DNA from: Phycicoccus duodecadis
GTDB taxonomy: Bacteria > Actinomycetota > Actinomycetes > Actinomycetales > Dermatophilaceae
Assembly: GCF_002846495.1 (NCBI RefSeq)
Contig: NZ_PJNE01000001.1
Location: forward strand, 186,001 to 250,000
Direction of reading: 5' to 3'
Length of the DNA stretch: 64,000 nucleotides
The position numbers and the translations under genes were made by a program. Below the pieces are notes generated by a model, which saw only the letters and a program-made list of their open reading frames with translations, did no database searches and was not told the origin of the DNA. Positions 9,225-23,213 of the stretch are shown in pieces. The stretch's first letter is position 1. Each line of letters opens with the position of its first letter.

Positions 9225-9268
9225 GTCGGGCTGACAGGATTTGAACCTGCGACCCCTTGACCCCCAGT
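9225..9268 (-). repeat. attL: 44-bp copy of tRNA-Pro 3' half
   Basis: Identical over 44 bp to 23170-23213, from the anticodon loop to the tRNA 3' end. This copy is followed on the minus strand by a complete CCA (9225-9223) and by the tRNA terminator, so it is the original chromosomal 3' end displaced by integration. Confidence 0.92.
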
Positions 9269-9514
9269 GATGATCCATCCGTCATGCGTGGTCCCTGCCA
9301 CTCTCTACCGCTGCTCAGTGAGCACGGCACAACGGCCGTGAACGTGGCCAGATCACATCCCATCCCCCGCCATCCCGTGCAGTGCGTGCACACACTGCAC
9401 GCTCACAGACCCCGCTGTCACCAGGCAGCGCTACACAAGAAGAGCGGCCCCAGCCCGGTGCTGGAACACCGAGCCAGGGCCTCGACCGATCACCTGAGAT
9501 AGAGGAGAACGACC
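9269..9514. other. Element left-end non-coding region with inverted repeat
   Basis: About 245 bp between attL and the first gene. It contains a perfect 8-bp inverted repeat (9377-9384 with 9393-9400) whose spacer region holds the 9-mer GTGCGTGCA (9382-9390). The complement of this 9-mer recurs near attR and at 18606-18626. Integrase or excisionase arm sites are a plausible role. Confidence 0.5.
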
Positions 9515-9934
9515 GTGAACAACATCCTGCCCAACACCAACCGCCCCTGCCCCCTTTGGTGCACCCTGCCCGCCGGTCACGGCTGGGAGTCCCTCTTCGA
9601 CTCACCCGGTGGCGACCTCGCTCAGAGGTACCACGTCCGGCCGGTGGCCAAGGTCCAGGTCGGCCGAGAGACGATCGACGTCGACATCATGGCGAGCGAG
9701 ACCGCGCCGACCGGCAACGGGCTGGACCTGACCGACCCCGACCGGTACGTCCAAGCCGGCATCGAGGACGACCCCACGGTGGAGTCCTCGCTGACTCCGC
9801 CGACCGTGGCCGTGCAGTGGCCTGGTCAGGCCGCTGAGCTAACCGCGGCCTCGGCCGAGACCATCGCTCGTGAGCTGCTCTCCGCAGCCGTCCGTGCGGC
9901 AGCCGAGCTCGACAAGATCACGGGTCAGTCGTGA
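9515..9934 (+). CDS. Small protein with CPLWC motif (DUF6907-like)
   Basis: 139 aa. The N-terminal CPLWC followed by a GHG sequence resembles the Cys/His pattern of the actinobacterial DUF6907 family, often found on mobile elements; function unknown. The rest is acidic and Ala-rich with a predicted helix at the end (about 108-135). GTG 9515 has a good ribosome-binding site, AGAGGAG, at 9501-9507. Its stop overlaps the start of the recombinase gene (GTGA), so the two are co-translated, which suggests a role tied to recombination or its control (inference). Confidence 0.65.
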   Translation: MNNILPNTNRPCPLWCTLPAGHGWESLFDSPGGDLAQRYHVRPVAKVQVGRETIDVDIMASETAPTGNGLDLTDPDRYVQAGIEDDPTVESSLTPPTVAVQWPGQAAELTAASAETIARELLSAAVRAAAELDKITGQS

Positions 9935-11106
9935 ACCCGGCCTGGTCCGCGGCGGCCGCCGGCTGGCGGATGATGCTCGAGGACAGCGGCCGAGCCGCGG
10001 CCACAATCGAGGGCTACGCCAAGCACGTGACATGGCTCGCGGACGACCTCGGCGGCGACCCCTGGGAGGTCACCCCGGGCCAGCTGCGCGACTGGGTCGA
10101 CGGGCACAACTGGTCGATGCACACGCGGCGCAAGGTGCTGGTGTCACTGCGGGCGTTCTACCGCCACGGCCTCGACATGGGCGAGCTCGCCCGGTCGCCC
10201 CTGGCGGGCCTGGAGGCGGTGCCCTCGCGCCGGCGCGGCCCTTCGCGCGTCCAGGTGGCCGAGCGGTGGGCCGAGCCCGTGACGGCGTTCCTGACGTGGA
10301 TGGAGGCCGGCGCCCGCAAGGCCTCCACCATCGAGCAGCGCCGGTGGTGGCTGATCCGCCTGTCGGAGACGTTCGCCGACCCGTGGAAGGTCACCCCCGA
10401 CGACCTGGGGCTGTGGCTCTCCCGCGGGGACTGGGCCCCGCAGACCAAGCGCCTCGGCCGCTCCACCGTGCAGCTGTTCTACACCTGGGCCGAGAACACC
10501 GGGCGCGTCGAGCGGTCACCGGCCCGGATGCTGCCCGCGGTGCTGATCCCGAGGGCCCTGCCGCGGCCGACGCCGGACGACGCCGTGCGCGCGGCGCTCG
10601 AGGTCGCTGACGACCGTCTCCGCCTGGCGCTGTACCTCGCGGTGTACGCGGGCCTGAGGCGGGCGGAGATCGCCGCCGTGCACACCCGGGACATCGAGGA
10701 CCAGGTCCTGCACGTGCACGGCAAGGGCGGCCACGAGCGGCTCGTGCCCCTCCATCCCGAGCTCCGGACCGCGCTGCGTGCCGAGCTGCACCGGCGCCGT
10801 GAGGGCACCAGCGGCACCGGGTGGGGGTGCAGGCCGACGGCGCCCGGCGGCTGGCTGTTTCCGTCCGACATCCCGGACGAGCACCTGACCGCGCACCACC
10901 TGGGCAAGCTCATCGCGGCCGCCCTGCCGGCCGGGTGGACCACCCACACCCTGCGGCACCGGTTCGCCACGAAGGCCTACCTGACCGGGCGCGACCTGCG
11001 GGCCGTGCAGGAGCTCCTGGGGCACCAGAAGCCCGAGACCACGGCCATCTACGCCGCGGTCCCTGACGGGGCGCTCGAGGCCGCGGTGGCCGGGGTGGGC
11101 ATCTGA
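9931..11106 (+). CDS. Tyrosine recombinase with duplicated core-binding domain
   Basis: 391 aa. The C-terminal catalytic domain keeps all key residues: Arg243 (GLRRAE), Lys265, His339 and Arg342 (HTLRHRF), His365 (LGHQ) and nucleophile Tyr374. The N-terminal part seems to hold two SAM-like core-binding domains in tandem, about residues 5-95 and 115-200: both contain a DPW-(E/K)-VTP segment followed by a short linker and an L-W-aromatic pattern. Ordinary integrases have one. GTG 9931 overlaps the upstream gene. It sits at the opposite end from the attR-proximal integrase, so it may act in excision, dimer resolution or a different reaction. Confidence 0.88.
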   Translation: MNPAWSAAAAGWRMMLEDSGRAAATIEGYAKHVTWLADDLGGDPWEVTPGQLRDWVDGHNWSMHTRRKVLVSLRAFYRHGLDMGELARSPLAGLEAVPSRRRGPSRVQVAERWAEPVTAFLTWMEAGARKASTIEQRRWWLIRLSETFADPWKVTPDDLGLWLSRGDWAPQTKRLGRSTVQLFYTWAENTGRVERSPARMLPAVLIPRALPRPTPDDAVRAALEVADDRLRLALYLAVYAGLRRAEIAAVHTRDIEDQVLHVHGKGGHERLVPLHPELRTALRAELHRRREGTSGTGWGCRPTAPGGWLFPSDIPDEHLTAHHLGKLIAAALPAGWTTHTLRHRFATKAYLTGRDLRAVQELLGHQKPETTAIYAAVPDGALEAAVAGVGI

Positions 11107-11193
11107 GCGCGCAGCGGAGGAAAAGCGCGGTCACATCGACGTTGCACACGTTCGCGGGCTGCGCGGGCCACGTGCCTTCCTGGGCCGCCGTGG

Positions 11194-21890: not shown

Positions 21891-23134
21891 GTGGAACCCT
21901 GTTCCGGCGCTGCGGCTGCCGGACCGCCGACGGCCGGCAGTACCCGGCCCTGGTGGAGCGGCCCACCGAGGCGCAGCGCGCCGCCGCATGCCCGGTGATG
22001 CTCGCCGATGCCAAGCACGGGCGCTGGTCGTTCCGTCTGGGCGCCGGAGTGGACCCGGTGACGAAGAAGCGCCGGCAGGTCAACGGCGGCACCTACGCGA
22101 CTCGCCGGGAGGCCAGCGAGGCCCGCAACGCCGCCGCCGTCCGAGTGAACCGCGGCGCGGTCGTCGCACCCTCTCGGGAGGTCCTCGCGGACTACCTCCC
22201 GGTGTGGCTCTCACGGCACACCGTGAAGGGCCGGAGCCTGCGCCCGGCGACCCGGGAGAACTACGCCCGGTACATCGCCCAGGACATCGCCCCGTCGACC
22301 CTCGGAGGGATGCGGCTCGGGGACATCCGGCGGCACCACATCAACGCCTTCCTCGAGCAGCTCAGCGACGCCGGCCGCGGAGCCGTGACGGTCCGCCGGA
22401 TAGCCGCCGTGGTCCAGGGCGCGATGCGCGCCGCGCAGGCCGAGGAGCAGATCGAGGACAACCCTGCGACCCGACTGCGGCTGCCCGCGGTCGACGTCGA
22501 GCCGTTCGCACCGTGGGAGCCGGCCCAGGTGGGCCACTTCCTCGACGTCGCCTCAACCCACCGCCTGGGCGCGTTCTTCGAGCTGGCGGTGTTCACGGGC
22601 CTGCGGCGCTCCGAGCTCGTCGGGCTCCGTTGGTCGGACATCGACACCGAGCGCGGCGTCCTGACCGTCCGGACCAGCAAGACGGACGCCGGCCGCCGCG
22701 TCGTCGACCTCGACGACCGGTCCACTGGGGCCCTGATGGCGTGGCGCCTGGCCCAGGAGGCCGAGCGGGCCGCCTGGGGGCCCGCGTGGGTCGAGACCGG
22801 GCACGTGTTCACCTACGAGAACGGCGAGCCGCTCAAGCTCCAGTACGCGACCCGCCTCTTCGACAAGCTGCGCGTGGCCGCGGGTCTGCCGTTGATGACC
22901 CTGCACGGCCTGCGGCACATGAGCGCGTCGCTGATGATCGCCTCGGGCGCCAACCTGGCCGTGGTGTCGAAGCGCCTCGGGCACTCGAGCGTGCAGGTGA
23001 CGGGCGACATCTACGCCCACCTGATCGGCTCCGCCTCACGGGACGCGGCCAACGCCGCGGCGTCCCTCGTGCCGTCTGCACGCACAGTGCACGCACATCG
23101 CTCCCAGACAGCAGTAGAGGCGGCCTCGTCGTGA
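21887..23134 (+). CDS. int: Tyrosine integrase adjacent to attR
   Basis: 415 aa. Arm-binding N-terminal region with Cys9, Cys11 and Cys35 and a KKRRQVNGGTYATRREA segment typical of phage integrases; core-binding domain about 97-200; catalytic domain with Arg240 (TGLRRSE), Lys265, His340 and Arg343 (HGLRHMS), His366 (LGHSS) and Tyr376. All catalytic residues are present. It ends 36 bp from attR, the usual place for the integrase of an element in a tRNA gene. ATG 21887 overlaps the repressor stop. Its 3' end contains the 21-bp double repeat that may be an arm site. Confidence 0.95.
   Translation: MSGTLFRRCGCRTADGRQYPALVERPTEAQRAAACPVMLADAKHGRWSFRLGAGVDPVTKKRRQVNGGTYATRREASEARNAAAVRVNRGAVVAPSREVLADYLPVWLSRHTVKGRSLRPATRENYARYIAQDIAPSTLGGMRLGDIRRHHINAFLEQLSDAGRGAVTVRRIAAVVQGAMRAAQAEEQIEDNPATRLRLPAVDVEPFAPWEPAQVGHFLDVASTHRLGAFFELAVFTGLRRSELVGLRWSDIDTERGVLTVRTSKTDAGRRVVDLDDRSTGALMAWRLAQEAERAAWGPAWVETGHVFTYENGEPLKLQYATRLFDKLRVAAGLPLMTLHGLRHMSASLMIASGANLAVVSKRLGHSSVQVTGDIYAHLIGSASRDAANAAASLVPSARTVHAHRSQTAVEAASS
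23076..23096 (+). repeat. 21-bp TGCACGCAC double repeat near attR
   Basis: Two TGCACGCAC units 12 bp apart (start to start) within the end of int, 74 bp from attR. A single unit is present near attL (9382-9390, inverse orientation) and a double one at 18606-18626. Candidate integrase arm site. Confidence 0.55.
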
Positions 23135-23151
23135 TGACCGAGACCGCCTCT
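23116..23151 (+). terminator. Possible terminator at the end of int
   Basis: 8-bp stem (23116-23123 with 23144-23151) with a 20-nt loop spanning the int stop codon. Long loop and no U-tract make it weak. Confidence 0.25.
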
Positions 23152-23169
23152 GACCTGCGACTTCCTACC

Positions 23170-23213
23170 GTCGGGCTGACAGGATTTGAACCTGCGACCC
23201 CTTGACCCCCAGT
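23170..23213 (-). repeat. attR: 44-bp copy that rebuilds tRNA-Pro
   Basis: Same 44 bp as 9225-9268. This copy is contiguous with the 5' half of the tRNA gene. On the minus strand it continues with CGG instead of CCA, so it was brought by the element. Confidence 0.92.

Follow-up and report, generated by a model that had tools for sequence, protein, structure and literature searches.

Organization of the integrated element

The analysed stretch of 64,000 nt from Phycicoccus duodecadis (the window) contains at 9225..23213 a segment bounded by two copies of a 44-bp sequence, described in the initial annotation as a direct repeat of tRNA-Pro(GGG). The repeat was found to be perfect (9225-9268 and 23170-23213), and its right copy forms the 3' portion of a tRNA-Pro(GGG) gene that is intact (23170-23244, minus strand). 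Counted from one repeat to the other, the element measures 13,945 bp. When the same genome was searched with a stretch opening with these 44 bases, no further exact copy appeared among the 40 of 499 candidates that were scored. In three genomes of the same genus (G003, G008, and G010) the site is empty, the left flank being followed by a single 44-bp copy and the tRNA gene; this assignment rests on 49-93 bp of left flank. The locus thus presents a small bounded element with an integrase and att sites. Its features are as follows.

9225..9268, no strand: attL, 44-bp copy of the tRNA-Pro 3' end, identical to 23170-23213
9515..9934, plus: p139, small gene ahead of int2 without family match (open frame, profile scan)
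9931..11106, plus: int2, second tyrosine recombinase (PF00589, 5e-23)
11209..11466, minus: p85, no assigned function (phrog_27584, 7e-6)
11572..12435, minus: AbiV-type protein (PF18728, 2.1e-28)
12475..14832, minus: tape measure protein, 785 aa (PF10145, 8e-22; phrog_1272, 1.4e-59)
14836..15087, minus: p83, directly upstream of the tape measure gene (profile scan, gene comparison)
15084..15257, minus: p57, small gene (open frame, profile scan)
15257..15988, minus: all-helical protein, 243 aa (sequence comparison, structure model)
15985..16359, minus: HTH_17 protein (profile match)
16356..17855, minus: TerL, 499 aa (phrog_2, 2.4e-41)
17852..18337, minus: TerS, 161 aa (homology to the pre-TerL genes of relatives, structure model)
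18334..18702, minus: p122, no assigned function (profile scan of part of the protein, gene comparison)
18699..20117, minus: RecA-like AAA_25 ATPase (PF13481, 2.3e-29; phrog_906, 1.8e-32)
20114..20386, minus: p90, no assigned function (profile scan)
20383..20763, minus: Cys-rich p126 (open frame; no family in profile scans)
20913..21218, minus: p101, Xis/HTH-like (profile scan; putative Xis by position and HTH only)
21261..21890, plus: XRE-family repressor (phrog_3, 8e-7)
21887..23134, plus: int1, tyrosine integrase at attR (PF00589, 1e-25; phrog_1, 1.5e-71)
23170..23213, no strand: attR, 44-bp repeat within tRNA-Pro(GGG) (repeat match, tRNA call)

Profile matches confirmed the integrase adjoining attR, the XRE repressor, the RecA-like ATPase, TerL, the HTH protein, and the tape measure protein, all of which had been named in the initial annotation. 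The excisionase-like, Cys-rich, coiled-coil, and two small proteins proposed there are borne out by open frames and, for the 243-aa protein, by a helical model as well. The genes int2, p139, p85, p90, and p122 and the AbiV-type gene were found in addition to those first listed. The AAA_25 ATPase is probably a replication helicase, and the AbiV-type gene is probably anti-phage cargo; PADLOC returned no match for the latter. p83 occupies the position of a tail assembly chaperone gene, and a chaperone profile match was sought for it and not found.

The large terminase subunit aligns with solved TerL structures in its ATPase domain as well as in its nuclease domain, and the motifs are present. For the TerS protein no profile match was obtained. 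The assignment of the preceding gene as terS is supported by its homology to the pre-TerL genes of relatives and by a structure model whose best three PDB matches are all HK97 TerS (probability 0.92-0.98, but E 0.34-0.64).

Many PICIs, not all, redirect the capsid by proteins of their own. Among the 18 window proteins compared with PHROGs (p122 in part) no capsid-redirecting protein was recognized, and no match fell in a capsid, portal, connector, tail-tube, or baseplate family, so that the portal and major capsid genes expected of a complete temperate phage were not recognized either. The sole lysis label, phrog_971, occurred among the tail hits of the tape measure protein. This agrees with the earlier statement that no capsid, portal, tail-tube, baseplate, or lysis gene is recognizable, and the recognized virion gene set of the element is incomplete.

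Related elements in other Actinomycetota

Besides the window element, TerS, TerL, and a tape measure were found together in an element of Klenkia soli, in the Rhodococcus plasmid pDJL3, and in the IMG/VR records L020, L021, L027, and L029, in which the element ends are not defined. The initial annotation had proposed that finding the set in several species, each time lacking capsid genes, would support a satellite, and this is what was observed: neither a capsid nor a portal gene was recognized in Klenkia soli, pDJL3, and at least four IMG/VR records (the four named above). The capsid-family scan covered the elements other than L020, L021, and L025, apart from a few of their small genes. The Klenkia element comprises at most 14.3 kb and has genes of the Tad pilus type on either side. 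pDJL3 is a closed circle of 15.9 kb in which a tRNA-Pro(CGG) core directly follows the integrase, the arrangement of an element that has been excised. A similar gene set thus recurs at 13.9-15.9 kb at other sites and with tyrosine or serine integrases. It is kept as a unit across lineages, with a gene order that differs between a Rhodococcus type and the type of the window, Klenkia, and L029. All frames are open, TerL is the best conserved gene, and seven of the eight elements compared carry a tape measure gene. In L025 (Solirubrobacteraceae) TerS, TerL, and an integrase are present and a tape measure was not detected.

Single genes of the window element also have counterparts. int2 is 39% identical to a recombinase of L029 that likewise lies at the tape-measure end, and the repressor is 30% identical to that of pDJL3. 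Part of the 243-aa helical protein is related to the Klenkia gene at the same place (E 6.5e-8 with only seven sequences compared; hhalign probability 68%), and no match was found to the helical protein of the Rhodococcus type. Its model is weak (pLDDT 70, pTM 0.47) and a fold search gave no significant match, so that a role as scaffold or capsid redirector is a guess.

The family is rare among the genomes searched. With few candidates per genome scored, TerL matches were found in four of 98 relatives including the own genome, the other three being weak (25-28% identity), in one of 148 genomes of the class, namely the own genome, and in two of 296 genomes of the phylum. Single-protein pattern scans detected nothing in viral or genome contigs with the window TerL as query, and nothing in viral contigs with the window RepA or the Klenkia TerL. 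A tblastn search of INPHARED with the window TerL matched 2488 records, none covering 80%, with a best identity of 29.3% among the matches listed; the pDJL3 TerL matched 148 records, with at most 26.4% identity among the 20 listed. Plasmids of S. virginiae (TerL 34%) were not counted among the members; no tape measure is annotated in the single plasmid inspected.

Phylogeny of terminase and tape measure

Judged from sequence comparisons, the terminase and the tape measure differ in history. For TerL the one-clade tests gave mixed outcomes across samplings. With seven phage rows a single clade of six satellite TerLs was not rejected (p 0.484) and five satellites gave p 0.0615; with one phage row the values were p 0.034 for five and p 0.08 for six. 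One close phage was placed inside the satellites in the TerL trees, an order that was unsupported after six phage rows had been added. L033 (short) was left out of the first TerL tree, Mbo4 and L034 out of the second, and Mbo4, L034, L025, L049, L063, L077, and L104 out of the tree with seven phage rows.

For the tape measures a single clade of five satellites was rejected (lnL lower by 449-485, p<1e-40, 9-10 rows). Those of the window, Klenkia, and pDJL3 are similar to phage tape measures; the pDJL3 protein matches that of Rhodococcus phage Mbo4 at 54%, and the window protein that of Streptomyces phage Raleigh at 41%. The phage rows (Raleigh, Bush, and Mbo4, plus L006) include three chosen among the best hits, and the tree is therefore biased toward phage neighbours. 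L029 was left out of the second tape-measure tree and of both tape-measure clade tests, and L020, a near-copy of pDJL3, out of all trees.

In the single pair L020 and L021 the genes, tape measure included, are under purifying selection, with dN/dS of 0.032 for TerL, 0.139 for the tape measure, and 0.068 for the chaperone. The dS reaches 0.72 in the tape measure gene and 1.0 in the chaperone gene, whereas TerL has 0.11, TerS 0.03, and a further three genes 0.22-0.28. As the values of the tail cassette lie far from those of the other genes, a separate history of this cassette is indicated. Tail assembly chaperones adjoin the tape measure in pDJL3 (phrog_3860, 3.6e-30) and L027 (3.6e-33). The satellite tape measures span 634-1441 aa (L020 1439 aa) compared with 681-1585 aa in four phages; the window gene, read from its sequence, is of phage length.

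Satellite or prophage remnant

From these comparisons we consider it probable that the window element is an integrative satellite, present in several actinobacterial lineages, which would bring its own packaging motor and tail ruler, use the heads of a helper, and form a chimeric tail. Similar elements occur in distant actinobacteria and the element is therefore probably a real satellite and not a broken virus. The satellite with its own motor and ruler had been proposed at the outset, with a deleted prophage as the rival; it gains support from the relatives without recognized capsid genes and from the fact that no matching complete prophage was found.

On the rival reading, one or several deletions would have stripped a 40-kb phage of the genes for head and tail, and int, repressor, terminase, and tape measure would be what is left of it. 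A related TerL (45-47% identity) occurs in seven phage records of 4-43 kb, and the fetched part of phage L134 has a full complement of head and tail genes (portal, MuF, major capsid, connector, tail tube, and chaperone) together with a related TerS-TerL; a stretch adjoining its TerL shares 62% identity over 53 aa with p101. Since phages with a related TerS-TerL exist, gene loss from one of them is a possible origin of the element, and phages ordinarily encode a tape measure. None of the seven records, which may be fragments, contains a relative of the window tape measure or a PF10145 domain; the PF10145 search had a positive control and the search for relatives none of its own. The same set inside a complete prophage, which would have spoken for decay, was not found. 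Together with the recurrence of the set at similar size with differing integrase types and sites, the open frames, the purifying selection in L020 and L021, and the different histories of tape measures and terminases, this makes a deleted prophage unlikely.

The tape measure might also act in interference, poisoning or competing with the tail assembly of the helper, while satellite particles use the helper's tape measure. Tail assembly is attacked by satellites and defence systems, as in the cases of Rta of PLE11 (PMC12987554, excerpts) and Tai (PMC11364771, excerpts), and no chaperone is recognized in the window element. The phage-like lengths, the chaperones in pDJL3 and L027, and the dN/dS of 0.14 suit a structural role better, and the PLE11 tape measure was detected in virions (PMC12987554, excerpts), so we regard interference as improbable. 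More improbable still is a satellite mobilized by packaging alone, in which TerS-TerL count and the tape measure would be replaceable cargo or a side effect of recombination with phages: L025, where no tape measure was detected, and TerL as the best conserved gene would fit, whereas the presence of a tape measure in nearly all elements compared and its purifying selection in the single pair L020 and L021 would not.

Comparison with known satellites

The closest parallel is PLE11 of Vibrio, which according to the available parts of PMC12987554 encodes a tape measure, a chaperone, and a baseplate hub and takes the capsid and most tail parts from its helper; virions with chimeric tails were demonstrated in 2026. 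The window element, known from its genes, likewise has its own tape measure but differs in its own TerL, in the lack of a recognized chaperone or hub, and in phylum; it is set apart from PLE by host and gene plan only. With capsid-forming PICIs it shares TerS and TerL, and some of these reportedly carry putative tmp genes; unlike them it has no recognized major capsid, portal, protease, or connector gene (PMC10690885, PMC12987554, both in excerpts). The Streptomyces elements MulchRoom and MiniFlayer are, as it probably is, satellites of actinobacterial phages with terminase genes, and MulchRoom has a tyrosine integrase and a tail inferred to be helper-derived; they encode portal and major capsid, whereas the window element has a tape measure and no recognized capsid gene (PMC10690885, excerpts). 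The plan of classical PICIs of the SaPI type, int and repressor divergent from an operon of Xis-like, replication, and TerS genes with defence cargo, is found in the window element, the putative Xis being assigned by position and HTH. Classical PICIs rely on the helper's TerL (in part PMC10690885, excerpts); the window element has its own two-domain TerL and a tape measure, and no capsid-redirecting protein was recognized in it. PICMIs are similarly small and without known capsid remodelling, and the concatemer packaging reported for them is suggested here; they differ in hosts, and the window element adds a TerS-TerL pair and a tape measure of its own (PMC10803314, excerpts).

A satellite tape measure (PMC12987554, excerpts) and a satellite TerL being already known, the earlier claim of a new type stands in part: what looks new is that both occur together in Actinomycetota with no capsid gene recognized. 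A literature search that did not extend to bioRxiv or most subscription journals turned up no account of such a family.

Control of tail assembly by a satellite was first reported in 2026 for a single Vibrio system (PMC12987554, excerpts). If the satellite reading is true, a case in Actinomycetota with its own motor and without recognized shell genes would make ruler-supplying theft of heads and tail tubes a general strategy, and some small actinobacterial "prophage remnants" would be working satellites. The exchanged tape measures indicate candidate helpers, in the case of pDJL3 Mbo4-like Rhodococcus phages.

A possible life cycle

Upon induction or helper infection the satellite would excise and replicate by its own ATPase. 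Its terminase would fill helper procapsids with element DNA, which might be concatemeric, and its tape measure would replace that of the helper, so that the tail would be chimeric, with a tube and tip from the helper built on the satellite's ruler. The tape measure, with the chaperone where present, may have been exchanged repeatedly from phages, plausibly keeping the match to the current helper, and the AbiV gene would travel as defence cargo. The own genome contains no second PF10145 tape measure that could point to a resident helper.

More tentatively, the motor may be kept across hosts while the tail-ruler cassette is swapped from the phages of the host, and head-filling trimers may be packaged into unmodified helper heads. 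On this possible reading, in which the cassette comes from the phages at hand, the ruler would be the helper-adapting part of the satellite. The element sizes are about one third of a siphophage genome: three copies of 13.9 kb amount to 41.8 kb, and three of the 15.9-kb pDJL3 to 47.6 kb, compared with 46.2 kb for Mbo4.

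Integration site of the element

The initial annotation had described an element bounded by a direct repeat of tRNA-Pro(GGG), and we could confirm its ends on the forward strand of the window:

9225-9268, left copy (attL) of a perfect 44-bp direct repeat
23170-23213, right copy (attR), which makes up the 3' portion of an intact tRNA-Pro(GGG)

Measured between the starts of the two copies, the element is 13,945 bp long. The att site was compared in seven of the 11 other genomes of the genus. Three of these (G003, G008, and G010) have an empty site, in which the final 49-93 bp of the left flank continue without interruption through a single 44-bp copy into the tRNA; the gene farther left of attL was not found at this site. 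For G011, G001, and G007 no alignment of the left flank was obtained past the repeat. The tRNA-Pro gene is an integration site common to different elements: in G006 it is occupied by another element of about 9.2 kb (L121:2369-11597), which looks like an AICE: it encodes an integrase and a RepSA initiator of the pSAM2 type, along with a pyridine-nucleotide oxidoreductase and a redoxin. An inverted repeat with 20-bp arms (95%) at 9177-9219 adjoins attL; it probably served as terminator of the tRNA-Pro gene before the element came to lie between the two.

Gene content

An XRE repressor and a tyrosine integrase (int1) are situated on the right side. The divergent operon encodes an HTH/Xis-like protein, a Cys-rich protein, p90, an AAA_25 ATPase, p122, TerS, and TerL, followed by an HTH protein, a helical protein, p57, p83, the tape measure, an AbiV-type protein, and p85. 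A PHROGs scan of 18 proteins (p122 in part) found no capsid, portal, connector, tail-tube, or baseplate family, in agreement with the earlier description of an element without recognisable capsid, portal, tail-tube, or baseplate genes. TerL matches solved TerLs in its ATPase domain (T4 gp17 and others) as well as in its nuclease domain, and carries the TerL motifs. The predicted TerS structure matched HK97 TerS best (probability 0.92-0.98, with non-significant E-values).

The left end carries another tyrosine recombinase, preceded by a small gene and convergent with the operon (9515-11106). A counterpart of 39% identity, likewise convergent, at the tape-measure end, and preceded by a small gene, is found in the IMG/VR record L029 (12511-13871). 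This recombinase perhaps serves multimer resolution.

Related elements

With few candidates scored per genome, 4 of 98 relatives had a TerL match at E 0.001, namely the source genome itself and three weak ones. In the class 1 of 148 genomes matched, again the source genome, and in the phylum Actinomycetota 2 of 296. Searching with TerL we found the Rhodococcus qingshengii plasmid pDJL3 (47% identity), an element of Klenkia soli (50%), and the IMG/VR records L027 (48%), L029 (39%), and L020 and L021, whose TerLs are 99-100% identical to that of pDJL3. The window element and at least these six relatives all encode TerS and TerL together with a tape measure protein of 634-1441 aa, within 13.9-15.9 kb. 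No capsid or portal family matched among the genes scanned (nine each of pDJL3 and Klenkia, six each of L027 and L029); what remains in these four elements are terminase, tape measure, integrase, and repressor genes and small genes. A similar set without recognised capsid genes recurs in several lineages, which the initial annotation had named as support for a satellite.

Ends are defined for the window, Klenkia, and pDJL3 elements; the four IMG/VR elements may hold further genes beyond the ends of the records, and L020 and L021 have no integrase within the record. The Klenkia element, with a serine integrase, occupies about 5.1-19.3 kb of its contig (L024), flanked by TadE-like genes and genes like those of type II secretion F/E; a repeat search for its exact ends found none over 12 bp. 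pDJL3 matches the expectation for an excised form, because it is a closed circle with a tRNA-Pro(CGG) core directly after the integrase. The same core is present within tRNA-Pro(CGG) of Nonomuraea. The order TerS-TerL-helical-small-tape measure is shared by the window, Klenkia, and L029; elements of the Rhodococcus type and L027 have their tape measure gene upstream of TerS-TerL.

A Solirubrobacteraceae element (L025) contains TerS, TerL, and an integrase, and no tape measure was detected in it; the same metagenome-assembled genome (G331, likewise of the Actinomycetota) holds a second TerL locus of the wider family (L142). TerL-like genes also occur on small plasmids of Streptomyces virginiae (NZ_CP108092.1 and NZ_CP108186.1, 16.3 kb; no capsid gene is annotated on the former) and Salinibacter (11-32 kb), which are possibly further satellites. 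Two satellites carry related small lipoprotein-like genes (phrog_25640; L018:2481-3059 and L029:7688-8314), perhaps, as a guess, for superinfection exclusion.

Satellite or decayed phage

The element could alternatively be a simple remnant of a phage. In the phage contig L028 TerL is followed by a portal gene related to phage portals, and its TerL as query yielded six more contigs of 4-43 kb, three of them at 29-43 kb. The analysed part of one phage contig, L134, contains portal, MuF, major capsid, connector, tail-tube, and chaperone genes; therefore this terminase family also serves full phages. Nevertheless, we regard simple decay as improbable. A similar reduced set is found in several lineages with differing integrases, the frames are open, and the comparison of L020 with L021 indicates purifying selection (dN/dS 0.032 for TerL, 0.139 for the tape measure, and 0.068 for the chaperone). 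Moreover, seven whole phage records with a related TerL, possibly fragments, contained neither a relative of the window tape measure nor a PF10145 domain.

History of TerL and the tape measure

The TerL trees agree with a sister-group relation between satellites and phages: a single satellite clade gave p 0.484 for six satellites and p 0.0615 for five, and less favourable values with a single phage row (p 0.0815 and 0.034, respectively). As judged from sequence, the history of the tape measure differs from that of TerL. One clade of five satellites was rejected for the tape measure (lnL lower by 485 and 449, p 3e-67 and 3e-41); the few rows and the choice of phages among the best matches limit the reading of history. 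In a comparison of six satellites and four phages, the best matches were phage Raleigh for the window (41%), phage Bush for Klenkia (35%) and, weakly, for L029 (25%), the near-copy L021 and then Rhodococcus phage Mbo4 (54%) for pDJL3, and the Rhodococcus satellites, with Mbo4 close behind, for L027. One of two trees groups the window with Klenkia and Bush, with support of 84/90, which is not firm. Between L020 and L021 the tape measure-chaperone cassette looks as if it had been exchanged, because silent-site divergence is far higher there (dS 0.72 and 1.0) than in TerL (0.11), TerS (0.03), and three other genes (0.22-0.28).

Novelty and proposed life cycle

The claim of a new type of satellite holds in part. 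We found no paper describing this actinobacterial TerS-TerL-tape-measure family, but parts of the idea have precedents: satellite tape measures in PLE (PMC12987554) and, reportedly, in some cf-PICIs, and satellite TerL in cf-PICIs and in MulchRoom and MiniFlayer (PMC10690885). A survey of actinobacterial prophages had already raised the suspicion that those below 15 kb are possibly satellites (PMC10023795).

In the proposed cycle int1 would excise the element, the ATPase would replicate it, and its own TerS-TerL would package the DNA into helper heads, with a tail of helper tube assembled on the satellite ruler. Such a tail is possible because it has been shown for the Vibrio phage satellite PLE11, which brings its own tape measure, chaperone, and hub and builds tails that are shorter by about 10 nm (PMC12987554). 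By arithmetic only, three element lengths approximate a siphophage genome, as would suit the packaging of concatemers that PMC10803314 reports for PICMIs.
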